A stretch of 43,683 bases of DNA. Source: Alteromonadaceae bacterium (GTDB taxonomy: Bacteria; Pseudomonadota; Gammaproteobacteria; Enterobacterales; Alteromonadaceae). Under the pieces are notes generated by a model. The model saw only the letters and a program-made list of their open reading frames with translations, had not been told where the DNA came from and did no database searches. Positions 7,004 through 31,281 of this stretch are shown here, piece by piece; positions within the stretch are counted from its first letter, which is position 1; each line of letters begins with the position of its first letter. The position numbers and the translations under genes are program-made. The stretch spans positions 1-43,683 of the forward strand of contig JALUXV010000438.1 in assembly GCA_027013165.1 (NCBI GenBank). Reading direction: 5' to 3'.

Positions 7004-10000
7004 CGACCACCTCCATGTTAACCCGCTGAAGGTCTTCTTCAGTAAGTGGGCGCTCAGTGCTCTCTTGCGGGGGAGCGGTATTATTTTGTGCGGGAAGACT
7101 GATATCCTTGCTGTCGCGCCCCACTTCTTCAAACACAGGCTCACTTATGGTGCCCGTAACTTTATAGTTCACATTCGAAATGACCTTAGCTGAAGTCAAC
7201 ATTTGGTCGAGAGCCAAAGCTGCGAGTGCAGTTGGCGGCGTGGCCAAAAAATACACTAACACAGGCAAATTACCCGTTACGTTGGGGGTAAATGACACGT
7301 CGTAGTTTAACGACCCATCAGCCAGCACTGTAGAGCCCATAATTTCAATATCACCTGCGCCGCCATCAATTTCTGTATCACCAGTGTAGGCTACGCCATC
7401 TGAAATATTTAGGGTTCCAGACATGCTGTCATAGAAAAAGCCTTTGGCAAATACGTCTCTAAAATCCAAACTCAACTTGCGAACAATGGAGTTTAGACTG
7501 AACAAGGTAAATATACGTGAGCCCTTGTCGCTAAGTTCAGTGAGGTAACCATCGCTTAATCCCCACTCAATGTCACCGTTAAGCTTGGCTAATGAAAATG
7601 CCATGGGCGATCTTTCCCAAGACAGATCAAAGTTCAGGTCAGCTTGAGAGTCTTTGATACCCGATGTCACGCCAAACTGTTTAAGCATTTGCCCTACATC
7701 AGGAGAAACCAGAGTGCCTATCAGCTGAGTAGAAGCCTGCCCACCCACAATGCTCCACTCACCTGTAGCATTAACCTCTAATTCATCAGACAGAGTTCGC
7801 AACTGGCGAATCACCATACCTTGATCTGCGCGAGCCACATCTAATGTGACTTCTCCCAGTTCAACATCAAACACTTCACACTGGCGACAGTACAAAGACA
7901 AAGGAGGTAGCTTTGTTGGATTAAGCCCAGCAGTGTCTTCGTTGCCTGTCGTAATGGCACTGAGCTCTGGCGATTTATTGAGACTCAAATAGTCGATATC
8001 TATCTTAACGCCCTGCTCGTACAAATCCCGATTGAATAGAATTGAGCCACGGGCATCTTCGGCAACAATATCAAGTAACCAATCACCAAAGGCGTATTCA
8101 GCCTCCAAATCCACATTGTGAAGCGAGTAACTGCCCAATGACAATTGTTCGGTACTTGCCGCGATATGTGTTGGCAAGCCAAATAAAGACAGCCTCTTTC
8201 CCTCGCCAGACTTATTGGTTTCAGCGCGGGTAAACGAACCAATGGCGTCAAACCATTGGGTGACGTCAGCACTTTCAAGCTGTGCAACAATATTGAAGCC
8301 GTCGCCCGTATGGGTGATGCTGTCTTCCCCAATGGATAGTAATGATTGAGTAAACTGCATTGTGCTATGAGGCAGGGTTCCTTCAAACGTCACTGATTCA
8401 CCAAGAGCCACATTGACATGTGAGCCATCATTGACCCCCTTGCTTGTTATTATCAAAGGGAGATCTTGTGACAATGACGAGGAAAACGGTTGAGGAAGAG
8501 TGCTTTCCACGTCTGTTAAGTTAGCCTGTAATACGGCTTGGTATTCGTATGCTTGTTTGCCCAGTGAAAGCGCTAAGTCTAGCTGCCAATTCGATTCTCC
8601 TGTGAGATATTGAGCAAATTCATCAGAAACGTAACTCGCCAGTGGTGTAACGTCCCAGCGACCTTGCATGTCAATGGTTAATCCATAGGTGTCTTGTTGC
8701 TCTCCGGTAAACGACAAACTAACAGGTTGAGAAAGCAAGTTAGCCGATAAGTTATTCGCAGTAATGTTGCCGTTGATGAAGTCAATTTCACCAGATACCT
8801 GCTCGAAGGTCATCTTTGTGCTGGCGATATAAATGGGCGTGTTGTCGAGACGAGCGCGACCCGATGCAACGACTTTACGGGTGTGTAATGGAATATCCAA
8901 CTGAAGGTCGGCAGCTACAGGGCCAGATATTAATACGTCTTTATTGAGAACACGCCCTAATGAATTCGATAGACTAGATTCAGCCATGAGTGCAGCCAAC
9001 TGCTCGCCAGTACCGTCACTCGATGCGTTAATAGTCAGTGTTGAATTTGGCCGCATACCGGGAATAACCGCCACAATATCTTTAAGCGCTATATCGTTAA
9101 GCTGTGCAGCGTCGCTTTCCATGATAAGGTCGTTGTTTTCAAAACGCAGCGACAAATCAAGCTCTGATAAAGCTGGCCACTTAGATGAGAATATAAAGTC
9201 GCCTTTTTCCACATCGACATATGCTTGGAAAATACCTTGGTTATTTTCAAATGGCCAGTCACCTGCCTTACCCTTCCACAGCACAGTTGCGCGGGTTACG
9301 TCACCTGCCCCAGTAAAGGCTCTGGTAAGAAAAGCATTGGTATTTTTCCCCATGTACTTGTTGGGGAACAACTGGCTGACCGTATTCAGCGGCATCGGCG
9401 CTATATCAAGTAAACTTGTAACTTCTCCAGAAGTGAGGTTAACCAACCCCTCAGCAGACAAATCAACAATGTCTGATTCAATCATTACATCGTTAATGGC
9501 TAGCTGCCACTCTTTGCCGTCATTACTGGCTTGTGGGTATACGAAAATACTGGCATTAAGCGCATCTAATGCCAGATTTTGTTTTAATATTCTGTCTGAT
9601 AGTAGCTCGCTTTGAGCAGAATGAAGATGTACGGCACCGCTATTTTTGTACCAAAACACATCGGCATCTAACGAAGTCATCCCAGGTATACGTTCAGTTT
9701 GCGACCAAGACAAGTCAATGACTTTTGCAGCAAGCGCCACACCTCTGTCACGTATTTGAATTTGTAGAGTGGCTAATTCGCCTTTGGGGTTAAGCGCTCT
9801 AAACTCCTGTTCTCCAGCTTCACTCATCACAAGAGGTAACACCATAAGAAAAGGGTTAAGTTGGATGGGTTTAACCGTGTTGAGCACCAGTTCACCATGG
9901 TTATACCATTGACCAACAATGTCGGTAACAAGGGTTTCGTTGTTAGAATCCAGTACCAACTGGTCTACCCGTATATTCCATCCATCTTGATGAGGTAGCA

Positions 10001-16779: not shown

Positions 16780-18312
16780 CTATGCGCTCGATTTTAGTTG
16801 AGGTGCTTGTGCTTTAGCCGTGGTAGCAGCAAGAAAGCAGGCAAGTACTTCTTTTTGAGATGTGGTAAGTCGCAACCCATGCTTGGTTCTGCGCCAAAGC
16901 ACATCTTCTAAAGTGCACGCCCATTCGCTACCTATCAAATACTGAACTTCAGCTTCAAATAACCCGGCACCAAAGTCTTTACCCATCTCTTCGATTGACG
17001 TTTTATCCGCCAAAAATTGCTTACAGCGAAGTCCGTACTGCCGAACATATCTCACTATATTGGTGTTTGGTAGCCAAGGGAAATCTTGCGCTAATTCCCG
17101 TTGCAAACTTTCCTTGTCTGCAAATGCTCCCCCAGGCAAGGGGGCATTTTTGGTCCAGGCTCTACCAGCTTTTGGAAACAATGTGACAAGTTTATCTACG
17201 GCATGTTCAGCCAGTTTACGATAAGTTGTTATTTTACCGCCAAAAACATTGAGCAATATTGGCGTTGAATTGTCGCCATTCAACTCAACTTTGTAATCTC
17301 GGGTAAGTTCTTGTGCAGAAGCATTCGCTTCTTCCAATAATGGACGAACACCGCTATAAGAATGCACAATGTCCTGCTGTGTAATTTTGGTTTTAAAGTA
17401 GCTATTAACAATGTCTACCAGATAGTCGGTCTCTTCCTGAGAAATCGCCGCATTTGACGGATCGCCCACATAATTTTCATCTGTAGTTCCAACTAATGAA
17501 AAGTCGTCTTCGTAGGGGATCACAAACACAATTCTACCGTCCGCACTCTGCAAGATATAAGCTTCGTCAGTATCATAGAGCTTAGGCACAACAAAGTGAC
17601 TTCCTTTAACCATGCGCATTGCTTTCGGATTATCTATGTCGTTTACTCTATCTAAAAACGACACAGCCCAAGGGCCTGCTGCATTTACTATGGCTCTAGC
17701 AACAATTGTAAACGTTTTCCCTTCAGAATCCCGCAACGTTGCATGCCACTTATTACCCTGCTTTTCCGCGCGAAGACACTCGGTACGTGTGTGTATGTTC
17801 GCACCTTGTTTTTGAGCGGCAATTGCATTTAGCACAACCAATCTTGCATCGTCTACCCAGCCGTCTGAGTACTCAAAACAGGTTTTAATGTCGCTGATCA
17901 GTCCGCTATCTTGTGGATTTTTAATCCGCTTAGAGCGAGGCAACATGTTACGCTTAGCGAGTGAGTCATAAAGAAATAGTCCAATTCGGATCATCCACGC
18001 AGGACGAAGATGTTTTTGATGGGGTAAACGAAAACGAAGAGGCCACATGATGTGCGGCGCTTTTTGAAGCAATACTTCCCGCTCTGCTAGTGCTTCTTTT
18101 ACTAGCCTAAACTCGTAATGTTCTAGGTAACGCAATCCGCCATGAATAAGCTTACTGCTAGACGATGATGTCGCTCCGCCTAAATCACCCTTTTCACAAA
18201 GAGCTACAGACAAACCACGACCAGCTGCATCTAAAGCTATACCAGTACCATTCACGCCACCGCCGATAACTAGGACGTCTATCGAACGTTCACGGTTCAC
18301 TGTGTTATTCAT
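16780..18312 (-). CDS. glpD: Aerobic glycerol-3-phosphate dehydrogenase
   Basis: FAD-dependent enzyme on the inner membrane that oxidises glycerol 3-phosphate to dihydroxyacetone phosphate and passes electrons to quinone. The 510 residues agree with E. coli GlpD (501). The FAD-binding motif 'VLVIGGGVNGTGIALDAAGR' starts near residue 13, followed by 'SSKLIHGGLRYLE'. The C-terminal domain carries 'EVQYLIGSEWACTLEDVLWR'. The start at 18312 has AGAGAG about six bases upstream; upstream in-frame ATGs lack such a site. Transcription is separate from glpR, which ends at a hairpin 102 bp upstream, and GlpR-like repeats cover the promoter. Confidence 0.96.
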   Translation of the reverse strand: MNNTVNRERSIDVLVIGGGVNGTGIALDAAGRGLSVALCEKGDLGGATSSSSSKLIHGGLRYLEHYEFRLVKEALAEREVLLQKAPHIMWPLRFRLPHQKHLRPAWMIRIGLFLYDSLAKRNMLPRSKRIKNPQDSGLISDIKTCFEYSDGWVDDARLVVLNAIAAQKQGANIHTRTECLRAEKQGNKWHATLRDSEGKTFTIVARAIVNAAGPWAVSFLDRVNDIDNPKAMRMVKGSHFVVPKLYDTDEAYILQSADGRIVFVIPYEDDFSLVGTTDENYVGDPSNAAISQEETDYLVDIVNSYFKTKITQQDIVHSYSGVRPLLEEANASAQELTRDYKVELNGDNSTPILLNVFGGKITTYRKLAEHAVDKLVTLFPKAGRAWTKNAPLPGGAFADKESLQRELAQDFPWLPNTNIVRYVRQYGLRCKQFLADKTSIEEMGKDFGAGLFEAEVQYLIGSEWACTLEDVLWRRTKHGLRLTTSQKEVLACFLAATTAKAQAPQLKSSA

Positions 18313-18349
18313 GTGCTCTCTTTTTTTACTCATAGGGATATTTGTGGCT

Positions 18350-18378
18350 ATTTGACCCCCAAAACGAAAACATGTCAA
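18350..18378 (-). promoter_or_regulatory. Candidate glpD promoter
   Basis: On the minus strand TTGACA (18373-18378) and TCAAAT (18350-18355) are separated by 17 bases, a good -35 with a 4/6 match at -10. It lies 38 bp ahead of the glpD start codon and is embedded in GlpR-like repeats. Confidence 0.55.
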
Positions 18379-18406
18379 CACAAAACGAACACAAACGAAC
18401 ATCAAT
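18361..18406 (-). promoter_or_regulatory. GlpR-like operator repeats upstream of glpD
   Basis: Read on the minus strand, TGTTCGTTT, TGTTCGTTTT and TGTTTTCGTTTTG follow each other across the glpD promoter. The E. coli GlpR site contains ATGTTCG and its inverted partner CGAACAT, so these resemble half-sites arranged as direct repeats. GlpR is encoded next door. Binding is inferred. Confidence 0.55.
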
Positions 18407-18412
18407 AAATAC

Positions 18413-18439
18413 AAAAAAACCGCGCTAAGTCGCGGTTTT
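18413..18439 (-). terminator. Terminator after glpR
   Basis: AAAACCGCG (18416-18424) and CGCGGTTTT (18431-18439) form a 9-bp stem over a 6-base loop. On the minus strand it is followed by a run of seven T residues, the right form for a terminator of glpR. Confidence 0.88.
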
Positions 18440-18466: not shown

Positions 18467-19228
18467 CTAGGCATGTACAAATTCTATACTATTCTCATCC
18501 AAGATTTCTTTGATGGCTTGTGGCGGTGCCTTATCACAAACAAAACAGCCAACCTGAGAAATATGGCCCTGTTCAACCATAGCTCTGCGCTCAAATTTAC
18601 TGTAATCAGCAGCAAGAATGACCTTTTGAGTGTGTTGCAATATAGCCTGAGATACCTTTACTTCTCTAAAATCAAAATCCAACAATGCACCGTCACCACT
18701 AATACCACTGATACCAATAATGCCGTAGTCCATTCTAAATTGACTAATAAAGTCACAGGTAGCTTCACCAATAATTCCACCATCTCTAAAGCGAACTTCA
18801 CCAGCGGCTATAATCACAGAAAAGTCCTCTTTTGCCGATAAAATGGTCGCAACGTGAATGTTATTGGTGACAATATGCAGGTTCTTGTGATTGAGTAGCT
18901 TCTTCGCAACCATCTCAGTAGTGGTGCCTATGTTGATAAATAGTGAAGCACCGTCCGGAATCATTGCCGCAATGGCCTCGGCAATTTTTTCTTTTACTTC
19001 CTTATTTTGTGTTTTCCTTTCGTTATATGGCGTATTTTCCCAGCTTCGATTTAAACCAGCACCACCGTGATATCGACTTACCGTACCATCCTCAGCCAGC
19101 TGATTTAGATCACGCCGAATAGTTTGTGGTGTCACAGCGCATTGTGAGACCAAATCGTCAATAGACATAAATCCATTTTGTTTTATTAGTTTTATTATTT
19201 TTTCGTGCCTTTGGGATTGATTCATCAC
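18467..19228 (-). CDS. glpR: Glycerol-3-phosphate regulon repressor GlpR (DeoR family)
   Basis: DeoR-family repressor released by glycerol 3-phosphate. The 253 residues match E. coli GlpR (252). The helix-turn-helix is at residues about 20-45 ('SIDDLVSQCAVTPQTIRRDL'), followed by the family signature 'VSRYHGGAG'. The effector domain has 'SLFINIGTTTEMVAKKLL' and 'DYGIIGISGI'. It lies between glpD (same strand) and glpK (divergent), both preceded by GlpR-like sequences, which supports the assignment over other DeoR members. Confidence 0.93.
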   Translation of the reverse strand: MMNQSQRHEKIIKLIKQNGFMSIDDLVSQCAVTPQTIRRDLNQLAEDGTVSRYHGGAGLNRSWENTPYNERKTQNKEVKEKIAEAIAAMIPDGASLFINIGTTTEMVAKKLLNHKNLHIVTNNIHVATILSAKEDFSVIIAAGEVRFRDGGIIGEATCDFISQFRMDYGIIGISGISGDGALLDFDFREVKVSQAILQHTQKVILAADYSKFERRAMVEQGHISQVGCFVCDKAPPQAIKEILDENSIEFVHA

Positions 19229-19320: not shown

Positions 19321-19384
19321 TATGATTGTTAATAGTGTGTAAATGATGCACACTTTATGTCAATTAAGTTTTAGGAGACGGGTT

Positions 19385-20869
19385 TTGGGTCAGTATATTC
19401 TTGCTATCGACCAGGGCACAACTAGCTCACGCAGCATTATTTTTTCTGCTTCTGGAGAAGCTGTTGCAATGGCACAAAGCGAATTTCCCCAACACTATCC
19501 TAACGACGGTTGGGTTGAACACGATCCAGAGAAAATCTGGGAAAGTGTTATCCAAACAGTTCGTCAAGTCGTCGAAAAGTCGGATATTCAAAGTGAGGAT
19601 ATAGCGACTGTTGGCATCACGAACCAACGAGAAACAACACTTGTTTGGAACAAGCATTCGGGGAAAACCATTTACCCTGCGATTGTTTGGCAAGATAGAA
19701 GAACATCTGCCCAGTGTAGTGAGCTTAGTAAAGATACAGCATTCACCGATTACCTATCGGAAACCACTGGATTGCTCTTAGACCCCTACTTTTCTGCAAC
19801 CAAAATTGCTTGGATACTCGATAATGTAAAAGGTGCAAGAGAAAGTGCCAATGAAGGTGATTTACTCTTCGGTACCATAGATACCTACTTAATTTGGCGC
19901 TTAACTGGCGGAAAATCTCATGTGACAGATGCTACCAATGCATCTAGAACCATGTTGTTTGATATTCACAACCAACTGTGGGATGACAAGCTACTTACCC
20001 AATTTAACATACCCAAAAGCATGCTTCCGGAAGTACTGGATTGCGCTGCGGAATTTGGTGAGCTAGATACTAGTATCATTGGACATAATACACCAATTCA
20101 AGGTGTTGCAGGCGACCAACAAGCAGCACTGTTTGGTCAGTGTTGCTTTAACAAAGGCATGGCCAAAAGTACGTACGGTACAGGTTGTTTTATGATCTTA
20201 AACACCGGTACTACTCCATTGCGTTCTAAAAATCGTTTGCTGACTACCATAGGTTATCGCTTGAACGGCGAAACCACCTATGCCCTAGAGGGCAGCATTT
20301 TTATGGCTGGAGCAACAGTGCAATGGCTTAGAGACGGTCTCAAACTTATCAGCAACGCTTCAGAATCCGAAGCACTAGCTATGAGCGCGAAAAAAGACAA
20401 CGGCGTATTTCTAGTACCAGCGTTTACCGGACTCGGCGCACCTTACTGGGATCCAAATGCACGAGGTGCCATCTTCGGCTTAACTCGCGATACGGGAATA
20501 AATGAAATCGTTGCCGCAGGCCTTCAGTCTGTGTGCTATCAAACTAAAGACCTTCAAAAAGCCATGGAAAGTGACGGTGCTAGACCTACCACTCTTCGTG
20601 TTGACGGTGGCATGGCCAATAATGATTGGGTAATGCACTTTTTATCAGATGTTTTGGGTGCCGACGTCGAGCGTCCAAAAAATACGGAAACTACAGCATT
20701 AGGCGCTGCTTATTTAGCAGGTCTTCAGTGTGGTTTATTCGCTTCTACCGACGAGCTTTCAGATCAGTGGAGTAGAGAAAACGTATTCTCTCCACGACTT
20801 TCAAAAGCAGAACGCGATACTGCGTATCAAGGTTGGAAAAACGCAGTAGAACGGGTCCGCTGTGGGTAA
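19385..20869 (+). CDS. glpK: Glycerol kinase
   Basis: Phosphorylates glycerol with ATP to glycerol 3-phosphate in the cytoplasm. The protein has 494 residues (E. coli 502), with the ATP-binding '[11 protein letters not shown]' at residues about 6-16, '[12 protein letters not shown]', '[10 protein letters not shown]' and the C-terminal '[11 protein letters not shown]'. The TTG at 19385 is chosen because AGGAG lies seven bases upstream and the family begins right before 'YILAIDQG'; an upstream ATG would add 14 unusual residues. It is divergent from glpR. No glpF glycerol channel gene is linked. Confidence 0.96.
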
Positions 20870-20970: not shown

Positions 20971-20977
20971 CGCAACT

Positions 20978-20993
20978 GGGAAAACGTTTCACC
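20978..20993. promoter_or_regulatory. LacI-family-type operator upstream of the TonB receptor
   Basis: GGGAAAACGTTTCACC has a central CG and half-sites that agree at 6 of 8 positions, the pattern of LacI/GalR-family operators. Sugar-utilisation loci with TonB receptors in this group are often controlled by such regulators. The region 20870-21152 holds this site, the palindrome at 20955-20970 and an AT-rich inverted repeat at 21018-21034 (TAACTAT-CAA-ATAGTTA); no gene is seen in it. Confidence 0.6.
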
Positions 20994-21152: not shown

Positions 21153-23888
21153 GTGACACATAAAATTAACACATCACAGTTAGGTCCCATCGCAAGACGC
21201 TCACTATTAGGTGTTGCCATTGCCTCTGCTCTACACGCTCCACTTACCTTTGCTCAAGAACCATCAGCTGACCAAGTTGAAGTTATTGAAGTAAAAGGTT
21301 TTACCAGTTCATTGAAAGCGTCGATGCTAGACAAAAAAGCTTCTGACGTAGTTTATGATGGTATTACCGCAGAAGACTTAGGTAAGTTCCCAGATCAAAA
21401 CGTTGCCGAGTCACTTCAGCGCATTACAGGTGTAGCAATAGACCGTAGTGGTGGTGAAGGTCAATTCATTACCGTGCGTGGTTTTGGTCCAGACTTCAAC
21501 ACTGTACTTGTAAACGGTCGCCAAATTGCCACTGAAAACCAAGGTCGAGCATTCAGTTTTGATACCTTGCCGGCTGAACTTATCAGCGGTGCAAAAGTAT
21601 ATAAGAGCCCAGTTGCTTCCATGCAAGAAGGTGGTATTGGTTCAACCGTTGAAGTAACTACAGCTCGTCCGTTCCAATTTGATGGTTTCCAAGCCGTAGC
21701 AAGCGTAAAGGGCATGTATGAAGACGTGTCTGAAGAAACTACACCGCAAATGTCAGGGCTTGTTACTAATACCTTCGCCGACGGTACTATCGGTGTTCTT
21801 GCGTCAGCGTCATTCCAGCAACGTAAGTTACAAACCAATATGCTTGAAACTCGTTACTGGCGCCCAGGGGTAAGCCTTACTGATCGTTCAGAATTGGATA
21901 ACCCAAATTATGCAGACAATGCGCAGCACAACGGCGTTTATGTTCCACAAAACTTCGACCAAATCGTTGACCTAGTTGACCGCGAAAGAACGTCTGCCAA
22001 TTTGGTGGTTCAGTACGCACCTAACGACGATATGACGCTTACACTAGACGGACTATATTCTAAGTTCGAAGTTGATTCTGATGCACACAGTGTTGGTCAC
22101 TGGTTCACCGACAGCAACCTAGACAACATGACATTCACAGAAAATGGCAGCCTTTCTAGCGTAACCAGTACTGTTGTTGATGGTGTTGGCGGTGCTACTG
22201 ACTTCATTCGTCGCCGTTATGGTCGTGACGTTGAAATTCAAGCGTTTGGCGCGAACTTCGAGTGGTTAGTGAACGATAATCTTACTGCTGTGATTGATGT
22301 ATCTACATCAACTGCGGAAGATAACAGTGGTGGTGATAACTTCTTCACAGTGGTTGGTTACAATAATGAGTACAGTGTAGATTACTCTGGTTCTACGCCA
22401 ACGCTTTCAGTTGCAGGCGGAGACGCAGCGCTTCAAAATCCTGCGTTAGGTCGTATGCACTACAATGAGCGCAACGGCTTCGACACTGAAGATACTATTT
22501 CAGAGTACCGTGCGGACTTTACGTGGACACCAGACTCAGACAATGCCTTCTACAAAATGGACTTTGGTGTTTACTACCAAGACCGTGAGAAGAGCAATAC
22601 TCGTCTGTTCGCTTCAGCGTGTAACGTATATTGTGGCTATAGCTTCGACCTTCCAGATGAATTGCTAACGGTATTTACAGCGAACAACTTCTTCGACGGT
22701 GTACCTAATCAATGGTTAACGTACGATCCTGCGGCATTCTTCGAGTACGCAACATCTGACGCAGCGGTAGCACAAATTGCAGCAGCTACTGGCTTAGATG
22801 CAGCCGACGTTCGTGCCACCATAGATGCAACTAACATTGCAAACCCACAACCTAGCAACGACTCTTTTGTAGTCAGCGAAGAAATTCTTAGCGCATACGC
22901 ACAGTTCTACTTCTCTACCGAAGTTTCTGATATGCCGTTAGACATTAACTTTGGTTTCCGCTTCAGCGACACAGATACTTCTGTAGATGGTACTAGCCAG
23001 ATTGTTAAAGATTTGGAGCCAATCCCTAACGATCCTTCTGATCTTAACGTTGTATACGAAACTGATGTTGGTGCGCCAGTTAACGAGACAAACAGCTACT
23101 CTACGTTGTTACCAAACGTCAACGTGAAACTACAGCTTACCGATGACCTATATCTTCGTTATGCATATGCTGAAACACTTACGCGTCCAATGATGGATGA
23201 CTTGGTGCCTGTGTTTAACGTAACTGTATCTCGTCCAGGTAACCTACAAGCACAAGCGGGTAACACAGAGCTACAACCATACAAATCAGCTGGTTGGGAC
23301 GTATCACTTGAATGGTACTACGATGACACTAGCTACTTCTCGGCGGCTGGTTTCAGTAAAGAAGTGGAAGACTTCATCGCAAGTGCTACTGCTGATGAGT
23401 CTTTATTCCTAGACAGCGGTGAATATGTTTTCAACGTGCTTCGTCCGCGTAATGGTGAAGCATTGGAAGTTGAAGGTATTGAATTAGCATGGTTACATAC
23501 GCTTGAGAACGGCTTTGGTATTCAAGCGAACGCCACTATCGTTAATTCAAACGATGAATTCAGCCTTCCTGGTTTAGGTAACTCACAAAACGTTACTGTG
23601 TTCTACGAAAAAGACGCTTTCCAAGCACGTTTAGCATTGAACAATCGTGAAACCTTCATGCAGGACGCTGTTAGCCCACTAGGTGGAACAGAGCCGCGCT
23701 TCACAGAAACCTACACTCAAGTTGATATGAGCGTAAGTTACGATGTTAACGAAACCTTCACGGTATTCTTTGAAGGTATCAACATTACTGATGAAGAGCT
23801 AACACGTCGTGGCCGTTTGTCTGAGCAATTCGTTCAGCAAATCAATGACGGTGCTCGTTACGCAGTTGGCGTACGTGCAAGCTTCTAA
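21153..23888 (+). CDS. TonB-dependent receptor, carbohydrate type
   Basis: Outer-membrane receptor of 911 residues. Residues 1-34 form a signal peptide, with likely cleavage near 'TFA-QEP'. A TonB-box-like 'VEVIEVKGF' lies at 42-50. The plug domain begins with 'EDLGKFPDQNVAESLQRITG' and has 'QFITVRGFGPDFNTVLVNGR', the signature of the large sugar-type receptors found in Caulobacter, Xanthomonas and Alteromonas. The beta barrel ends with phenylalanine in 'GVRASF'. The start is GTG with GGAG eight bases upstream. Neighbouring symporter and GH36 genes suggest alpha-galactosides as substrate; this is inferred. A terminator follows, so its level can exceed that of the genes behind it. Confidence 0.95.
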   Translation: MTHKINTSQLGPIARRSLLGVAIASALHAPLTFAQEPSADQVEVIEVKGFTSSLKASMLDKKASDVVYDGITAEDLGKFPDQNVAESLQRITGVAIDRSGGEGQFITVRGFGPDFNTVLVNGRQIATENQGRAFSFDTLPAELISGAKVYKSPVASMQEGGIGSTVEVTTARPFQFDGFQAVASVKGMYEDVSEETTPQMSGLVTNTFADGTIGVLASASFQQRKLQTNMLETRYWRPGVSLTDRSELDNPNYADNAQHNGVYVPQNFDQIVDLVDRERTSANLVVQYAPNDDMTLTLDGLYSKFEVDSDAHSVGHWFTDSNLDNMTFTENGSLSSVTSTVVDGVGGATDFIRRRYGRDVEIQAFGANFEWLVNDNLTAVIDVSTSTAEDNSGGDNFFTVVGYNNEYSVDYSGSTPTLSVAGGDAALQNPALGRMHYNERNGFDTEDTISEYRADFTWTPDSDNAFYKMDFGVYYQDREKSNTRLFASACNVYCGYSFDLPDELLTVFTANNFFDGVPNQWLTYDPAAFFEYATSDAAVAQIAAATGLDAADVRATIDATNIANPQPSNDSFVVSEEILSAYAQFYFSTEVSDMPLDINFGFRFSDTDTSVDGTSQIVKDLEPIPNDPSDLNVVYETDVGAPVNETNSYSTLLPNVNVKLQLTDDLYLRYAYAETLTRPMMDDLVPVFNVTVSRPGNLQAQAGNTELQPYKSAGWDVSLEWYYDDTSYFSAAGFSKEVEDFIASATADESLFLDSGEYVFNVLRPRNGEALEVEGIELAWLHTLENGFGIQANATIVNSNDEFSLPGLGNSQNVTVFYEKDAFQARLALNNRETFMQDAVSPLGGTEPRFTETYTQVDMSVSYDVNETFTVFFEGINITDEELTRRGRLSEQFVQQINDGARYAVGVRASF

Positions 23889-23903
23889 GATAGCCTAAAT
23901 AAC

Positions 23904-23927
23904 AAGGGGGCATACTCGCCCCCTTTT
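23904..23927 (+). terminator. Terminator after the TonB receptor gene
   Basis: AAGGGGG (23904-23910) pairs with CCCCCTT (23919-23925) across an 8-base loop, followed by TT, GTC and TTTTT. It would stop most receptor transcripts while letting some continue into the symporter gene 28 bp downstream. Confidence 0.8.
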
Positions 23928-23954
23928 GTCGTTTTTATTGCTGAGGAATTATTA

Positions 23955-25397
23955 GTGTCAGGTAGCCTTATTCAACTTAGTGTTTTTGTTTTAATCACTG
24001 CATTTATTGGACTTCTCACCTATTTAAAATGTCGTGGGCACGGGCACAGCACGGCAAGTGGCAACAAAGAATACTTTCTAGCGGGTGGCGGATTAACATG
24101 GATATTCGTGGCCGGCTCAATCACCTTAACTAACTTAAGTACCGACCAACTTGTCGGTATGAACGGTAATCAAATGGCCCTGCTAGCGTGGTGGGAATTT
24201 GCCGCCGTAGTAGGCCTTATTATACTTGCCAAAGTCTTCCTACCGGTTTATTACCATTACCAGTGCACTACAACCACTGAATTGCTGGAAATGCGCTACA
24301 ACAACAAACATATTCGCGCACTGATTGGCCTAATTTTCTTTCTAGGTAGCAGCCTTATATTCATGCCAGCTGTTATCTATTCGGGTTCACTGTTCATGAT
24401 TAACATGTTCAATGTGGATATTCCCTTGATGTATGTAGCAACGGCATTTGCCCTAATTGGCGCACTTTACGCTATTTTTGGTGGGCTTCGAGCAGTAGCC
24501 GTATCAGACACATATTCTGGCATCTTATTGTTAACCATGGCTATTGTGGTAGTAGTATTGGCCCTTTTGGCCATCGATTTCGACTTTTCAGGAATTCCAA
24601 AAGAGCGCTTAACCTTAATTGGAGACAACGACTCTCCACTACCTTGGCACACCCTATTAACCGGCATGATCTTTATTCAAGCGTTTTATTGGGGAACTAA
24701 CCAAGTAATAACCCAACGTGCTATGGCAGCGCCTAATTTAAAAGAAGCACAAAAGGGCGTTTATGCAGCAGCAGTTATTCGCTTTATCATTGTTCCAGCG
24801 ATCATAGTCGTACCTGGTATTATTTCTTATAAGCTTTACGGTGATATTAACGATGCAGCCTACGGTACGCTTGTAGGTGATGTGCTACCAAGCTGGTTAT
24901 CTGGTGTCTTTGCTGCCGCCTTAGCAGCAGCGGTACTTACCACTTACAACAGTAACTTAAACTCGGCAACCGCTTTGTATGTGTGTGACATCCACGAAGC
25001 CTACTTCCAGAAAGAGCCAAACGTTGCTCGCTTAAGCGGCTTTGTTACCGCAATACTTACAATAGTGTCTTTATTAATGGTGCCGGTATACGCGCAAGCG
25101 GAAAGTATTATTAACTTACTGCAAGAGCTGTACGGGTTAATTAGTATGCCAGTACTTTCTATCTTTGTTGTTGGCTTACTGTTCAACAATGTCAATGCAA
25201 ACGCTGGTATCTTGTCGGTAATTTTTGGTGTTGCGCTATATTCGTATTTTAGTTTTGTGCATGCACCATTTGGCCTACATTACATTCACCTTATGCCAAT
25301 AACACTGGCTTGTTGTATCGCACTTGCGCTATTACTCAACAAACTAGTGTTTAAGCAAACCGCACAGTGGCGCGGTAAATTGGTAGACGCTGAATAA
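23955..25397 (+). CDS. Sodium/solute symporter, SSS family (sugar type)
   Basis: Inner-membrane symporter of 480 residues with about 13-14 hydrophobic segments. Its N-terminal region carries 'EYFLAGGGLTWIFVAGSITL' and 'TELLEMRYNN', typical of the SGLT-like branch of the family. 'AALAAAVLTTYNSNLNSATAL' near residue 320 matches the segment that binds sodium and substrate in family structures. The start is GTG at 23955, with TGAGGA upstream; the next in-frame methionine is deep inside the protein. It lies 21 bp ahead of the halogenase-like gene in what appears to be one operon ending with GH36, so galactose or an alpha-galactoside is the probable substrate. Confidence 0.92.
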   Translation: MSGSLIQLSVFVLITAFIGLLTYLKCRGHGHSTASGNKEYFLAGGGLTWIFVAGSITLTNLSTDQLVGMNGNQMALLAWWEFAAVVGLIILAKVFLPVYYHYQCTTTTELLEMRYNNKHIRALIGLIFFLGSSLIFMPAVIYSGSLFMINMFNVDIPLMYVATAFALIGALYAIFGGLRAVAVSDTYSGILLLTMAIVVVVLALLAIDFDFSGIPKERLTLIGDNDSPLPWHTLLTGMIFIQAFYWGTNQVITQRAMAAPNLKEAQKGVYAAAVIRFIIVPAIIVVPGIISYKLYGDINDAAYGTLVGDVLPSWLSGVFAAALAAAVLTTYNSNLNSATALYVCDIHEAYFQKEPNVARLSGFVTAILTIVSLLMVPVYAQAESIINLLQELYGLISMPVLSIFVVGLLFNNVNANAGILSVIFGVALYSYFSFVHAPFGLHYIHLMPITLACCIALALLLNKLVFKQTAQWRGKLVDAE

Positions 25398-25418
25398 CTT
25401 AACTCAGGTTAGTTCTAT

Positions 25419-26969
25419 ATGACACCAATTAATCATGTAGTGATTGTTGGGGGCGGTACAGCTGGTTGGCTTACCGCCGGCTTGCTTGCTGCACAACATT
25501 CGATGCCTGATGCCAACGGAACATCACTTAGAGTTACCGTAATTGAGTCTGACGCTATTCACCCCATAGGTGTAGGTGAAGGCACTTGGCCAACCATGCG
25601 TAATACTTTGCACCGTATTGGTATTAGTGAGTCAGAACTCATTAAACAAGCCCATGCTACTTATAAGCAGGCGAGTAAGTTTCAACAGTGGCACAGCAAT
25701 GAAACTACTAACGCCTATTATCACCCGTTCAGCGCGCCTCAAGGATCGGCTTCAGCAGATATCACTCCCTATTGGCTGGTTTCTGAGGGTGAAGATAGTC
25801 ATTACGCCAATGCCGTTTGTTTTCAACCAACACTATGTGAACAAGGATTGGCACCTAAGGTTTCAGCGTTGTCGAACCAAGGTTTTTCCGCCAACTATGG
25901 CTATCATTTAGACGCAGGAAAGTTTATCGAGCTTCTCAAGTGCCATTGTATAAACACCTTAGGGGTGTCTCACATCAAGGATACTGTCACTCATGTGAAC
26001 AAAAATGATGAAGGTATCACCAGCCTAGTCACCTCTTCTAATGGTGAAGTATGCGGAGAACTGTTCGTCGATTGCACTGGATTTAACGGATTGCTCATCG
26101 AGAAAACACTCGGTGTTGGACTAAAAGACGCGTCTGACATCCTGTTTGCAGATACCGCCTTGGTAAGCCAACGTGAATACGCTTCTGCAAATCAGCCCAT
26201 TGCGTGCCACACGTTATCTACTGCACAAGAGGCTGGTTGGATATGGGACATTGGCTTACAACACAGAAGGGGGACCGGATATGTTTTCGCATCCCAATAT
26301 CAAGAAAAGTCCTCAGCTGAAGCTACCTTTAGTCGTTACTTGAAACAAACCGGAGAATCAGAAAACGCAGAATTCTCATTTAGAGAAATTAAATTCAAAA
26401 CCGGTTATCGCAACGAGTTTTGGCACAAGAACTGTGTTGCTATTGGGCTATCAAGCGGCTTTCTAGAACCTTTAGAAGCATCATCACTTATGCTCATTGA
26501 ACAAAGCGCCACCCAACTTTGTGAGCAACTCCCAGGCTACACTGAGCAAATGTCGCATGTAGCCAATAAGTTTAATCAATCACTTACCTATAAATGGGAG
26601 CGCACTATAGAGTTTTTGAAACTCCACTATGTATTGAGCAAGCGTACCGACCCTTTCTGGTTAGACAATAGAAAAGCCTGCTCTATTCCTTCGCGACTTA
26701 GTGAATTAATGGACGTATGGAAATATCGCCCAATATTAGACAGTGATTTTGAGCACACCAACGAAGTGTTCAGTGCACAAAGCTACCGCTATATTTTGTA
26801 CGGAATGTCTCGCTACAGTGACCTGAACCAATACGTCCGAACAATGAAACTCAACCAGTTTGCTCAGAAACAGTTTGAATTAAATAACACCTTAATTGCA
26901 CAGCTTACTAGCAAGTTACCCTCGCACAGAGGACTCATTGAAAGTGTACTTTCATCACAACAGAGGTGA
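25419..26969 (+). CDS. Flavin-dependent halogenase-like protein (tryptophan halogenase family)
   Basis: A 516-residue protein of the tryptophan halogenase family. The FAD motif GGGTAGW is at residues 11-17 and 'IGVGEGTWPTM' at 50-60. A lysine in the position of the catalytic Lys of PrnA is seen as Lys83 in 'TYKQASKFQQW'. The second family motif WxWxIP is present but altered: 'WIWDIG' at 274-279, with Gly for Pro. 'SGFLEPLEASSL' at 346-357 matches the C-terminal active-site region. Members of this clade occur beside sugar TonB receptors and SapC proteins; one metagenomic relative, BrvH, halogenates indole in vitro, but the natural substrate is unknown. No partner flavin reductase is encoded here. 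It starts 21 bp after the symporter and ends 3 bp before the SapC gene. Confidence 0.88.
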   Translation: MTPINHVVIVGGGTAGWLTAGLLAAQHSMPDANGTSLRVTVIESDAIHPIGVGEGTWPTMRNTLHRIGISESELIKQAHATYKQASKFQQWHSNETTNAYYHPFSAPQGSASADITPYWLVSEGEDSHYANAVCFQPTLCEQGLAPKVSALSNQGFSANYGYHLDAGKFIELLKCHCINTLGVSHIKDTVTHVNKNDEGITSLVTSSNGEVCGELFVDCTGFNGLLIEKTLGVGLKDASDILFADTALVSQREYASANQPIACHTLSTAQEAGWIWDIGLQHRRGTGYVFASQYQEKSSAEATFSRYLKQTGESENAEFSFREIKFKTGYRNEFWHKNCVAIGLSSGFLEPLEASSLMLIEQSATQLCEQLPGYTEQMSHVANKFNQSLTYKWERTIEFLKLHYVLSKRTDPFWLDNRKACSIPSRLSELMDVWKYRPILDSDFEHTNEVFSAQSYRYILYGMSRYSDLNQYVRTMKLNQFAQKQFELNNTLIAQLTSKLPSHRGLIESVLSSQQR

Positions 26970-26972
26970 AGC

Positions 26973-27725
26973 ATGACCCAGCCTAACTATATTGCGTTAG
27001 ACAGCGTAGCGCACAAATCTTACTGCGTGATCCCCGATGACCGCTTTAGTCACTCGGCGGCTTTCAACGCTGTCGCTTTGGGCTTTAACGAAATTGCCTC
27101 AATCGCTGGGTGTATGCCTATTCTAGTTGCCCCAGATTTGTTGGGCGCACCAGAAAAACTAATCGCCGTGGTTGGATGGCCTGAAACGGGAAATGTATTT
27201 TGTGGACGCAACCACTGGAAAGCTCATGCTGTGCCTTTAAGTATTCAGTGCACTCCGTTTAACTACGGACTTGAGAACGAGCGACTCACCGTATTAGTGG
27301 ATGAGGCAAGTGAGCGTTTTGTAGCTTCAACTCAGAATCATTCACAGCCGCTATTTTCTGGTGACGGCACACCTAGCCAGTTTTTAAAGCAAGTTCAAAG
27401 TCAGCTGAGCAACCTGGCATTGGGCCAACAACAAGCTCAAATGATGATTCAGGCGTTGTCAGATCTCGATATGTTTATTCCCTTGTCACTCACGCGAACC
27501 TTTGCCGATGGAAAACAAGATACCACCTCAGATTTGCTCACCATTGATGAAGAAAAACTAGTCAATCTGAACGCTGACACAATATATGAACTGCATAAAA
27601 ATGGATTACTCATGGCCATAAACGCCATGATACTTTCGTTGCGCCAGTACAACCGCCTTGTCCAACTCACACAGGGCTCAGATAACCCAATAAGTCGAAT
27701 CACGCTTAAAACACAGCGCGGGTAA
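26973..27725 (+). CDS. SapC family protein
   Basis: A 250-residue protein of the SapC family (named after an S-layer-locus protein of Campylobacter). It has 'GWPETGNVF' at 68-76 and the family segment 'SERFVASTQNHSQPLFSGDG' at 113-132. No signal peptide or membrane segment is visible, so it is probably cytoplasmic. Its function is not established. In proteobacteria such genes recur next to TonB receptors and halogenase-like genes, as here. It is 3 bp behind the halogenase-like gene and 25 bp ahead of the alpha-galactosidase, so all are probably cotranscribed. It is unrelated to the SapC permease of the Sap peptide transporter. Confidence 0.87.
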   Translation: MTQPNYIALDSVAHKSYCVIPDDRFSHSAAFNAVALGFNEIASIAGCMPILVAPDLLGAPEKLIAVVGWPETGNVFCGRNHWKAHAVPLSIQCTPFNYGLENERLTVLVDEASERFVASTQNHSQPLFSGDGTPSQFLKQVQSQLSNLALGQQQAQMMIQALSDLDMFIPLSLTRTFADGKQDTTSDLLTIDEEKLVNLNADTIYELHKNGLLMAINAMILSLRQYNRLVQLTQGSDNPISRITLKTQRG

Positions 27726-27750
27726 CATCAACTTCATCGAGAAAGAATGT

Positions 27751-29880
27751 ATGTCTTCTATTTCCTCTTTTATACGACTAGACAACGCCAAAACCACCCT
27801 TATTTTTGATTGTCAGGGGCGTATGCCATCACTTTTATATTATGGTTCGCAACTCAGCGACACCACTACGCCAGCCATGTTAGGTATTCTTAGTACCCGT
27901 CAAGAAGCTAAGTGCGCTCCAGTCGTCGAACCACCAATTTCTTTGGTGCCGACTCACGGTGAAGGTGTGACTGGTTCACCAGGCTTACAAATTCATGGAA
28001 GCACAGACCAATGGTCTGCCGGTTTTGAGCTTACCGCAATAGAGCAAGATGGTCTTTGTGTTGTGTTCAAAGCTTCAGATAAGCATCGGGAACTAACGCT
28101 AATCACAAAGGTCACCCTTGATGCCAATACCAGTGTGGTCAGCTACCAAAGCAAGGTGCAAAATGATGGCAGCGACAAGGTAAACGTCAACTTCCTCAAT
28201 GCAGCCAGTATTCCATTGCCCGCCCACGTAGATACCATTCGCAGCTTCGAAGGGCGTTGGTCTAGTGAGTTTGTCACCTCAGACCAAGAGTGGAACTTTG
28301 GTAGTTATGTGCGGGAAAATCGTCGAGGAAAAACCTCTCACGACACTTTTCCAGGTTTAATTACCTTCCCCAAAAGCACAACCGAACAACAAGGCGAGTG
28401 CTATGGCTTTCACTTAGGTGCCTCTGCGAACCACAGTATTCGTGCAGAGTTAATGGCTGATGGTAGACGTTACGTTCAATTTGGTGAGCTACTCTTCCCG
28501 GGTGAAGTATCACTAGCAGAAGGCGAGAGCTACGCTAGCCCAGTACTTTACAGCGGCTACGCGAGTGACGGCTTGTCTCTGTTATCACAAGAGTTTCACA
28601 ATTATATCCGTGCAAATATACTTACCCACTCGGCGGAGTCTAAGCCCCGTCCGGTGCACTACAATACATGGGAAGGTATTTATTTCGACCATGATGTAGA
28701 TACGCTGAAAACCCTTGCCAACAAAGTCGCCCCGTTAGGTATCGAACGTTTTGTTTTGGACGATGGTTGGTTTAAAGGCCGCCGTCATGACCATGCAGGA
28801 TTGGGTGATTGGTTTGTTGATGAGGCGATTTATCCAGAAGGCTTAGATCCACTGATCGACCACGTCACAGGGTTAGGTATGGAGTTTGGTATTTGGTTTG
28901 AGCCGGAAATGGTCAACCCAGACAGCGACCTATTCCGCGCACATCCAGAGTGGGCGTTGCAAACCAATAACAATCCTCATGTGCCATTCAGACATCAGTA
29001 CGTGTTGGATCTGACCAACCCTGAAGTGGTTGAGTATTTGTATAAAGTCATTACCGACATACTCACTGCATACCCCAAAATCAGCTATATCAAGTGGGAT
29101 ATGAACCGCGACGTTAACCATCCGGGCAACCTTAACGGTCAGCCAGCCATGCATGGACAGATGCAAGCGCTATATGGGCTAATCGACCGCGTTAAAGCAG
29201 CGCGTCCGGGCATTGAAATCGAGAGCTGTTGCTCAGGGGGTGGCCGTGTAGACTTAGGTATTTTGCCTCACACTGATCGTTTCTGGACCTCCGACTCTAA
29301 CGATGCACTGGACCGCTTATACATTCAACGGGGCTTCTCACTTTTCTTCCCATCGGAGGTCATGGGCGCTCACGTAGGGCCAAGAGACTGTCATATCACA
29401 GGCAGAAACCTTCCCATCGAGCTTCGTGCAGCCGTAGCTATGTTTGGTCATATGGGGATTGAAATGGACCCACGAGAGCTCACTGACCACGAGCAAGACA
29501 CGCTAAAAGATGCCATTGCTTTGTACAAAGCACACCGCCACATTACCCATAGCGGAGACTTATTCCGTATGGACGACGATGGGCTTAACGTGAACTTTGG
29601 CTATGTAGCTAAAGACAAATCTGAGGCTTTATTTGCTTATAACAGTGTGAAGGAAACGACTCGCACTACACCGAATAAATATCAGTTTATAGGGTTAGAT
29701 CCTAACAAGTCATACACGGTAAGCCGCATTTGGCCCAATACGCTGAAAGAATATTCACCGTCTATTTTGCAAAAAACTGACGGCCAAGTATTTACCGGTG
29801 AAGCACTGATGCGTTTTGGTATGCAGTTACCAGTACTCTTTCCGCAAACCTCATTAATTTACAGCGTAAAAGAAGTTTAA
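27751..29880 (+). CDS. Alpha-galactosidase, GH36 family
   Basis: Releases terminal alpha-linked galactose from melibiose, raffinose or related galactosides. The 709 residues match GH36 bacterial enzymes: an N-terminal beta-sandwich domain (to about 290), then the TIM barrel with 'FVLDDGWF' (334-341), the nucleophile Asp450 in 'YIKWDMNRD' and the acid/base Asp515 in 'FWTSDSNDA'. 'SCCSGGGRVD' precedes the second. No signal peptide is seen, so hydrolysis takes place in the cytoplasm after uptake by the receptor and symporter encoded upstream. A strong hairpin just behind the stop codon ends the operon. Confidence 0.96.
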   Translation: MSSISSFIRLDNAKTTLIFDCQGRMPSLLYYGSQLSDTTTPAMLGILSTRQEAKCAPVVEPPISLVPTHGEGVTGSPGLQIHGSTDQWSAGFELTAIEQDGLCVVFKASDKHRELTLITKVTLDANTSVVSYQSKVQNDGSDKVNVNFLNAASIPLPAHVDTIRSFEGRWSSEFVTSDQEWNFGSYVRENRRGKTSHDTFPGLITFPKSTTEQQGECYGFHLGASANHSIRAELMADGRRYVQFGELLFPGEVSLAEGESYASPVLYSGYASDGLSLLSQEFHNYIRANILTHSAESKPRPVHYNTWEGIYFDHDVDTLKTLANKVAPLGIERFVLDDGWFKGRRHDHAGLGDWFVDEAIYPEGLDPLIDHVTGLGMEFGIWFEPEMVNPDSDLFRAHPEWALQTNNNPHVPFRHQYVLDLTNPEVVEYLYKVITDILTAYPKISYIKWDMNRDVNHPGNLNGQPAMHGQMQALYGLIDRVKAARPGIEIESCCSGGGRVDLGILPHTDRFWTSDSNDALDRLYIQRGFSLFFPSEVMGAHVGPRDCHITGRNLPIELRAAVAMFGHMGIEMDPRELTDHEQDTLKDAIALYKAHRHITHSGDLFRMDDDGLNVNFGYVAKDKSEALFAYNSVKETTRTTPNKYQFIGLDPNKSYTVSRIWPNTLKEYSPSILQKTDGQVFTGEALMRFGMQLPVLFPQTSLIYSVKEV

Positions 29881-29891
29881 TTTCTTTTTAT

Positions 29892-29927
29892 CAGTGTGTT
29901 GGCAAAGTTGCGCCAACACACTGGGTT
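29892..29927 (+). terminator. Terminator after the GH36 gene
   Basis: A perfect 12-bp stem, CAGTGTGTTGGC (29892-29903) with GCCAACACACTG (29912-29923), is followed by GGTTTT. It begins 12 bp after the GH36 stop codon. Confidence 0.85.
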
Positions 29928-29991
29928 TTCACCATGTTTCTTGCTAATTTGTGGTTTAAATAACACACCACACACTGCAACGGCGAAATTT

Positions 29992-31281
29992 ATGGAAGAA
30001 ACTACTGGCTCTAAGAGTTGGCTTCAACGACTCAAAGATGAAAGTTGGGAAGCTGAGTTATTGGTATCTGCTGTTGCCACATTCGCTGCATTCCAACTGT
30101 TCCAACTTACCGACTGGACCATTTACCGCGCGGTAGACATTCTTCATCCAGACCAATATTTCTATGCTTACACCATTGTATTTATGGGCATGATAGCCGT
30201 AAGCGTACTCGTAACCATGTTTGTCATTCATTTCATGCTCAGGTCTTACTGGATAGGATTAGTAGGGCTTAATTCCGTTTTCCCCGATTATGGCTTGGAA
30301 GACAGCGCCTATTCTGAGCTTTACACTAATAAATTTAGGGAGATGCTCCCCAAGCTCACACACACCATCGACCAAGTCGACGAGCTGTGCAGCGTGATAT
30401 TCTCAGCGGCCTTTGTGAGCGTAGTGGTTTATGCATATTTCGGTGTATTAAGTGCGCTCTATTTAATGCTATTTAATATGCTCAATGACTTGCTACCCAC
30501 TTGGCTGTTATTACTCCCCATATTTACACTGATTTTGCTCACTGGTGTACAGGGGCTTCTTACCCTTCTTTCAAATATAAAGAAAATCAAAGACAACGAT
30601 ACTATTCAGTTATTTCTGTTCAGAATCGTAAAGCTGACCAACATGATAATGCTTGGGCCAATCTACAAAAGTGCATTACAGATCATTATGACTTTCGGCT
30701 CTAACTTCAAACGCAAAAAGCACATTGCATTCATGGTAATGGGTTTTATGTTTTTTGGATGCATAGTCGCGGGTGTAAAGTTTGCTAGATCAGACCTCAT
30801 GGTATTAATCAATAACGAAGCATATTTGTCACAACATACCCATCGTCCTGATATGTATCGTAGTGACAACAGCGCTGTTGACTTTTTGATTGGGCCTGAA
30901 ATTTCCTCTGATGTAATCAACGACACAGTGTTACGAGTGTTTATTCCTAGAATGCGCCATGAAAAAACCATATTCAAAGGCCAATGCGGCGAATTTGAAA
31001 CGCCTGAAGGTAAGACCGAAAGAGAAGTCAGAACACTGCGCAATACTCATGAAATTGCCTGTTTCCAAAGTTTCTACTCAATCTTCATCAATGACCAAGA
31101 AACAAATGCTGAACTTCAATACGCTTATCATCCAACAACTAATCAACTTGGATTTCTGACTTACATAGATCTGTCTAATACACAACCCGGTGGCCACGAG
31201 TTGAATGTGATAAAAACCTTGGGCGACGAATTAGAATACAACTGGAGCGTCCCTTTTTATTACGCGCCAAATTCAAGGTAA
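29992..31281 (+). CDS. Multi-pass membrane protein, unrecognised
   Basis: I do not recognise this 429-residue protein. It has an amphipathic charged N-terminus ('WLQRLKDESWEAELL'), then hydrophobic segments at roughly residues 17-40, 53-85, 128-160, 163-188 and 246-267. About 160 mostly soluble residues follow, with cysteines in 'KGQCGEFET' and 'HEIACFQSF', so the tail may be periplasmic with a disulphide. The start at 29992 is preferred because an earlier in-frame ATG would lie inside the GH36 terminator; no strong ribosome site precedes either. It follows the galactoside operon on the same strand but past its terminator, so a functional link is not shown. A terminator-like hairpin follows 94 bp after the stop. 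Confidence 0.75.
   Translation: MEETTGSKSWLQRLKDESWEAELLVSAVATFAAFQLFQLTDWTIYRAVDILHPDQYFYAYTIVFMGMIAVSVLVTMFVIHFMLRSYWIGLVGLNSVFPDYGLEDSAYSELYTNKFREMLPKLTHTIDQVDELCSVIFSAAFVSVVVYAYFGVLSALYLMLFNMLNDLLPTWLLLLPIFTLILLTGVQGLLTLLSNIKKIKDNDTIQLFLFRIVKLTNMIMLGPIYKSALQIIMTFGSNFKRKKHIAFMVMGFMFFGCIVAGVKFARSDLMVLINNEAYLSQHTHRPDMYRSDNSAVDFLIGPEISSDVINDTVLRVFIPRMRHEKTIFKGQCGEFETPEGKTEREVRTLRNTHEIACFQSFYSIFINDQETNAELQYAYHPTTNQLGFLTYIDLSNTQPGGHELNVIKTLGDELEYNWSVPFYYAPNSR

Follow-up and report, generated by a model that had tools for sequence, protein, structure and literature searches.

Why do a flavin-dependent halogenase family protein and a SapC-family protein stand between the transport genes and the glycosidase gene of a sugar-type uptake locus? 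The locus lies in a 43,683-nucleotide stretch of an Alteromonadaceae bacterium genome (assembly GCA_027013165.1, contig JALUXV010000438.1), which is analysed here as a whole and called the window. Our answer has two parts. That the halogenase and SapC genes are linked to the TonB-dependent receptor gene is a strong claim. The function proposed for them is a well-aimed hypothesis, in which the locus would take up galactosyl-glycerol and a cassette of receptor, halogenase and SapC genes would serve to modify the receptor oxidatively before its export, with SapC as adaptor; we hold this combined reading tentatively, at somewhat less than an even chance. A preliminary description of this DNA had recognized five adjacent plus-strand genes, the last four separated by 3–25 bases. 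All five are present, and the intergenic gaps are 66, 21, 3 and 25 bases. That description drew the locus too narrowly, leaving out upstream genes (listed further below) that are key for the substrate. The five genes are as follows.

21153..23888, plus strand: TonB-dependent receptor of the TonB-Xanth-Caul class (TIGR01782, 621 bits, above the cut-off of 310)
23955..25397, plus strand: SSS-family Na+/solute symporter (PF00474; TIGR00813, 207 bits, above the cut-off of 184)
25419..26969, plus strand: flavin-dependent halogenase family protein, subgroup A (PF04820, 391 bits; cut-off 21)
26973..27725, plus strand: SapC-family protein (PF07277, 157.7 bits; cut-off 28.9)
27751..29880, plus strand: alpha-galactosidase of glycoside hydrolase family 36 (GH36; PF02065, 408 bits, with PF16875 and PF16874)

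An absence of linkage between the halogenase, SapC and TonB-receptor families had been named as one outcome that would speak against a common system. The comparison was made, and linkage appeared in SapC-seeded loci, in halogenase-seeded loci and at the level of whole genomes. The SapC-seeded set comprised the best 80 of 499 relatives in named genomes, with a query that represents one SapC subgroup. Among these 80, Cupin_8 genes were found in 79, halogenase genes in 77 and TonB receptor genes in 76; the four loci without a receptor (L183, L194, L202 and L237) come from stretches in which less than 2 kb of sequence precedes SapC. This set spans Alteromonadales, Cellvibrio, Shewanella, Steroidobacter, Woeseiaceae, Lysobacterales and an alphaproteobacterial metagenome-assembled genome. 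The window halogenase was matched at E 1e-90 in 175 of 246 genomes of the family, and 68 loci from other genomes seeded with it contained a TonB receptor in 67 cases, SapC in 59, Cupin_8 in 21 and DUF6445 in 20, with halogenase, SapC and receptor together in 58. When the window is counted with them, 60 of 69 loci have SapC and a halogenase on the same strand and less than 150 bases apart, whereas only about 1.7% of 19.5-kb stretches would be expected to hold any SapC gene at all (an estimate from 4 SapC genes per 4.79 Mb), which argues that the SapC–halogenase linkage exceeds chance. Across 299 Pseudomonadota genomes, 111 had SapC and 55 had the halogenase (E 1e-60); SapC was present in 50/55 halogenase genomes versus 61/244 of the others (Fisher 4e-20, with kinship ignored).

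The genes also stay together around the glycosidase. GH36 orthologues (E 1e-120) occur in 54 of the 246 family genomes at 55 places. The analysis covers 49 of these loci, 40 reached by GH36 alone and 9 that the halogenase had already brought in; the other 6 are not included. In 43/49 of these GH36 loci (34/40 of those reached by GH36 alone) the receptor is accompanied by both halogenase and SapC, and in two, L318 and L328, halogenase and SapC are both absent from the stretch read. The full window arrangement is kept in two same-genus genomes (L100 and L101). At its fullest, the gene order in other cassettes is receptor, halogenase A, SapC, Cupin_8, halogenase B, DUF6445. The link between SapC and halogenase is thus real, and it is not obligatory, as SapC without halogenase is common.

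The window's own genome (4.79 Mb, 586 contigs, contamination 6.5%) holds 18 PF04820 matches, 4 SapC genes and 19 receptors above the TIGR01782 cut-off. One of its regions (L083, contig C38, 6645–12597) carries four consecutive PF04820-family genes, one of them lacking the halogenase motifs, with TonB receptors further out on either side. On contig C60 (L090, 10768–11523), a SapC gene lies directly upstream of the division cluster mraZ, rsmH, ftsL and ftsI (names by eye), and the stretch read shows neither a receptor nor a halogenase. A scan of genome contigs with the halogenase as a single protein gave 12 stretches that matched a pattern, none of which was confirmed.

What the cassette accompanies is far less constant than the cassette. 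Its catabolic neighbours include GH3, GH16, agarase-CBM, GH94, sulfatase, YgjK-like glycosidase and MR/MLE enzyme genes, and an alanine-dehydrogenase-like and saccharopine-dehydrogenase-like pair with an NhaC-type antiporter is also found beside it. In L097, L129, L134, L136 and L139, this dehydrogenase-like pair and the antiporter separate the halogenase from the receptor, which also has a YgjK-like glycosidase gene as a neighbour. Such variety argues that the cassette is not the property of one sugar or of GH36, and the tie to sugar sensing put forward in the preliminary description finds no support. It also makes it very improbable that the cassette acts on the nutrient taken up or on a glycan of the cell surface. 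The location of most cassettes among nutrient-uptake and catabolic genes would suit that idea, but no common nutrient is apparent among neighbours that range from GH3, GH16 and GH36 to amino-acid-dehydrogenase-like genes, and the ten recurrent neighbour clusters scanned included no glycosyltransferase. Separately, 12 of the 20 DUF6445-bearing loci (L092, L096, L104, L105, L107, L109, L110, L112, L114, L115, L116 and L127) also have genes that read by eye as ECF sigma and FecR-like, which suggests control by cell-surface signalling.

Does the cassette then follow the receptor or the sugar genes? Pairwise distances were compared in the 37 of 49 GH36 loci in which all five genes were of acceptable length, with the best match to each window protein taken per locus. 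The Spearman correlations were 0.88 for receptor–halogenase, 0.81 for receptor–SapC and 0.88 for halogenase–SapC (0/200 permutations each). Against GH36 they were 0.21 for the receptor (5/200 permutations), 0.18 for the halogenase and 0.24 for SapC (1/200), and against the symporter 0.07 (29/200), 0.14 and 0.15, respectively; a few of these weak values still exceed most permutations. The contrast argues that the cassette follows the receptor and not the sugar. The same can be seen within the genus. Relative to L299–L301, the window shares 78% in GH36 and 76–78% in GlpK versus 53% in the receptor, 42–45% in the halogenase and 23–25% in SapC; relative to L100 and L101, the figures are 73–77%, 74–76%, 89–90%, 63–65% and 51–53% in the same order. 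The symporter goes along with this within-genus swap (71–72% versus 90–91%). One locus, L303, was considered as a cassette-free galactoside counter-example and rejected, as only a 272-amino-acid receptor remnant remains there, beside a GH36 that is missing its N-terminal part. Symporter, halogenase and SapC are absent there (7330–10000), through internal deletion or an assembly fault.

These correlations bear on a simpler explanation, that the two genes hitch-hike with the receptor for reasons of regulation or transfer and do an unrelated job, for example handling redox or halide stress. Co-transfer of adjacent genes raises distance correlations by itself, and some receptors of the same clades have no cassette, both of which fit such passengers. 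Yet GH36 and the symporter lie nearby as well in the galactoside loci and correlate at only 0.07–0.24, and the association recurs across several receptor lineages and in half of the distant genera that hold both genes (numbers given below). We therefore consider hitch-hiking unlikely.

The enzymes themselves appear to be functional. The window halogenase has GGGTAG at residues 11–16, in agreement with GxGxxG, together with GEGTW, WIWDIG and EPLEASSL, and it retains K83 and E353, the lysine and glutamate with catalytic roles in halogenases. Both residues are present in 192/192 halogenases of the two main groups (nine proteins of another motif and one degenerate protein stand outside this count). 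These groups, subgroups A and B, were defined by motif; a midpoint split was discarded, having set apart just one degenerate protein. HxD...H is intact in 91/91 Cupin_8 and 37/37 DUF6445 proteins. Judged by these residues, all three oxygenase families probably comprise competent enzymes. The window protein, of subgroup A, has 2pyx as its nearest solved relative (467 bits), whereas the one subgroup B protein compared, from L130, is nearest to 6y1w (Xcc4156, 653 bits), followed by 9luq (562), 6frl (BrvH, 465) and PrnA (312). The likeness to BrvH and Xcc4156 lies with this subgroup B protein, whose group retains the lysine and WxWxIP; the window enzyme differs from them, with its WxWxIG and EPLEASSL.

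Two further comparisons are with enzymes that act on proteins. QhpG and LodB are flavoproteins that act on a partner protein; the window enzyme matches their profiles very weakly (31 and 20 bits, far below cut-offs of 240 and 400) and differs in keeping the halogenase lysine. JmjC/Cupin_8 proteins are protein hydroxylases, and the Cupin_8 partners of other cassettes resemble them in their intact motif; the window cassette differs in having no Cupin_8 gene.

Do these enzymes instead act on a small molecule? The halogenase and its oxygenase partners could make or alter indole, another aromatic signal or a surface metabolite coupled to receptor expression, with SapC as carrier or regulator. BrvH (PMC5945002) and the Xanthomonas enzymes (PMC7336383) are reported to act on free indoles in vitro. 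PMC5945002 gives the activity of BrvH on indole as low, doubts indole as its natural substrate and considers larger ones; PMC7336383 states that BrvH and three Xanthomonas halogenases have no known native substrate, and suggests peptides. For the subgroup B protein compared, this favours a substrate of protein size. The literature passages searched make no mention of SapC or receptor neighbours of BrvH. The cassette proteins have no apparent signal peptide (signal peptides were judged by eye throughout), which is consistent with cytoplasmic work on a metabolite, and in Cupin_8-type loci the halogenase tracks Cupin_8 and not the receptor. Several distinct copies per genome are nevertheless hard to reconcile with one common product, three of the four SapC genes in the window's own genome adjoin a receptor, and the cassette diverges in step with the receptor in galactoside loci. 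A small-molecule role is accordingly improbable in our judgement, and nothing found here favours either the surface glycan or the small aromatic signal of the preliminary description.

Of the partners of the cassette, the receptor is the most constant, the genes diverge in step with it in the galactoside loci, the proteins look cytoplasmic by eye, and the enzymes have oxidative, protein-modifying relatives. Together these points lead us to favour modification of the receptor. In this reading, the halogenase and SapC stand outside the sugar pathway and are inherited with the receptor as one cassette, which in other loci is enlarged by a second halogenase and two oxygenases, one of the JmjC-type Cupin_8 family and one of DUF6445. 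Before the receptor polypeptide is exported, the apparently cytoplasmic enzymes would add halogen or hydroxyl groups to it. SapC would be the receptor-specific part, an adaptor, and the oxygenases the enzyme part. Linkage, cassette behaviour and the integrity of the catalytic residues are demonstrated, whereas the nutrient, the target molecule, the chemistry, its cellular location and the part played by SapC are proposals. The structural model of SapC is confident (pLDDT 91.7). Neither Foldseek nor VIA gave a solved match to its fold (a whole-protein model was used, and VIA covered mainly residues 165–250), and no sequence relative was found in the PDB. In 70 Cupin_8-type loci, the receptor–SapC correlation is 0.65 (0.61 given Cupin_8), compared with 0.64 for halogenase–Cupin_8 and 0.34 for SapC–halogenase. 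The earlier suggestion that the odd proteins may modify the receptor is the best-fitting option, with a restriction: both halogenase and SapC track the receptor in galactoside loci, and SapC alone does so in the Cupin_8-type loci.

A number of observations weigh against receptor modification and the linkage behind it. The receptor–halogenase correlation is 0.20 in the 70 Cupin_8-type loci (0.04 given Cupin_8), and in 102 mixed loci it is 0.46, versus 0.75 for receptor–SapC and 0.58 for halogenase–SapC; the effect of co-transfer noted above applies to all such values. Ten of the 68 halogenase-seeded loci are without one of halogenase, SapC and receptor, six regions of the window's own genome have receptor and halogenase without SapC, and at E 1e-60 no halogenase is found in 61 of the 111 genomes with SapC. 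Among 53 SapC genomes standing for 51 distant genera, the halogenase was found in 24, and gene coordinates place a listed SapC within 3 kb of it in 12 of these 24 (38 listed SapC places were compared, and some further SapC genes are not listed). The window cassette has no Cupin_8, second halogenase or DUF6445 gene. Its halogenase reads WIWDIG instead of WxWxIP, with glycine in 123/129 proteins of subgroup A and proline in 63/63 of subgroup B; halogenation itself is therefore unsure, and we class the window protein, by its profile, with the sequence family and not as a halogenase. Finally, a comparison with 23 receptors that lack the cassette, column by column for 14 of them, had little power and found no receptor residue that tracks the presence of the cassette; the cassette-free receptors nest among cassette-bearing ones in the same clades with the same residues kept. 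A small precursor peptide encoded between the receptor and the next cassette gene was also considered and rejected: 131 gaps were measured, those of at least 150 bases were read for open reading frames, and no small frame recurs. Two long frames in these gaps are DUF6445 genes (by eye).

The window also contains the elements below, which bear on the nutrient.

16780..18414, minus strand: GlpD, aerobic glycerol-3-phosphate dehydrogenase (NF008899, 749 bits; cut-off 360)
18467..19228, minus strand: DeoR-family regulator, GlpR-like (PF00455, PF08220)
19343..20869, plus strand: GlpK glycerol kinase (TIGR01311, 721 bits; cut-off 590)
20977..20993, no strand: LacI-type palindrome centred on AAACGTTT, upstream of the receptor gene and recurring in other loci
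29896..31281, plus strand: membrane-like open reading frame of 461 amino acids (by eye), candidate member of the transcription unit, 15 bases 3' of GH36

The AAACGTTT-centred palindrome lies 5' of the receptor in six of the seven loci inspected, the window counted; the remaining one, L302, has a receptor that extends up to the edge of the stretch. The 461-amino-acid frame gave no match in Pfam and NCBIfam scans and has no homologue among the called open reading frames of the other 80 loci.

Which nutrient does the locus import? The GH36 protein has its three domains, and its KWDMNR and WTSD stretches align with those of AgaB (4fnq), placing it among the GH36 alpha-galactosidases. The nearest solved relatives of the symporter are the sodium/glucose cotransporter entries 2xq2 (146 bits) and 3dh4, which makes it SGLT-like; it falls below the cut-off of the PRK10484 solute:sodium symporter profile (NF007790, 382 versus 401 bits). 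Since a signal peptide is not apparent in GH36 either, the cell probably takes up a small galactoside intact and hydrolyses it internally. GH36 has GlpK or GlpD nearby in 27/49 loci read (19/40 of those fetched by GH36 alone), in varied arrangements, so that, by gene content, 27 loci as well as the window combine an alpha-galactosidase with glycerol catabolism genes. Among the first 81 loci, GlpK/GlpD was found in 8/9 halogenase loci with GH36 versus 0/72 without (Fisher 2.8e-10). Putative galactose-handling genes (GalK-/GalT-like, or clusters c40 and c46, which we take by eye to be DgoK/DgoA-like) occur in 30/49 GH36 loci. Galactose and glycerol together make galactosyl-glycerol, and floridoside requires an alpha-galactosidase only. 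The recurrence of GlpK/GlpD near GH36 thus suggests that the locus likely imports an alpha-galactosyl-glycerol, with floridoside as the simplest choice. The receptor would carry it through the outer membrane and the SGLT-like symporter through the inner membrane; the cytoplasmic GH36 would cleave it, and GlpK and GlpD would burn the glycerol.

Melibiose- and raffinose-type alpha-galactosides and galactolipid head groups are common GH36 substrates, and import of one of these in place of floridoside is a real if doubtful possibility. In 22/49 GH36 loci there is no GlpK/GlpD in the stretch read, which counts against the galactosyl-glycerol assignment. A table in PMC7190382 predicts 'Galactolipids' for the Alteromonas macleodii receptor MASE_00935, which adjoins an alpha-galactosidase and may be comparable to the window receptor, and describes the laboratory strain ATCC 27126 of that species as genetically tractable. 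PMC8509150 reports isofloridoside made by a GH36 enzyme through reverse hydrolysis. The variously arranged, recurrent GlpK/GlpD neighbours fit glycerol as a product, and a digalactosyl head group would require a beta-galactosidase, a family absent among the ten window proteins scanned. Melibiose or raffinose, the substrates named in the preliminary description, are therefore less likely than galactosyl-glycerol.

Among known systems, the locus comes closest to the TonB-receptor carbohydrate-utilisation loci of Proteobacteria (CUT/PUL-like loci). Like these, it combines receptor, inner-membrane symporter, glycosidase and a putative LacI-type operator; unlike them, it holds two cassette genes that have no described role in the searchable literature and whose divergence goes with the receptor instead of the catabolic genes. 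Searches of open-licence PubMed Central showed no account of the cassette, with most subscription papers and preprints outside its reach. A wider proposal would see in the cassette an undescribed system that matures TonB receptors in general. One or more cytoplasmic halogenases and the JmjC-type and DUF6445 oxygenases, directed by receptor-specific SapC adaptors, would place halogen or hydroxyl marks on receptor side chains before export, and this would be what orphan halogenases of the BrvH/Xcc type natively do; we think this rather unlikely in so broad a form.

The locus offers a testable route for floridoside or galactosyl-glycerol. Close relatives of the orphan halogenases, together with SapC, travel with one class of receptor, so the question of their native substrate becomes testable on the receptor. 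If the proposal is true, receptors of marine carbon degraders would be halogenated or hydroxylated, a new layer of control over the uptake of algal carbon.

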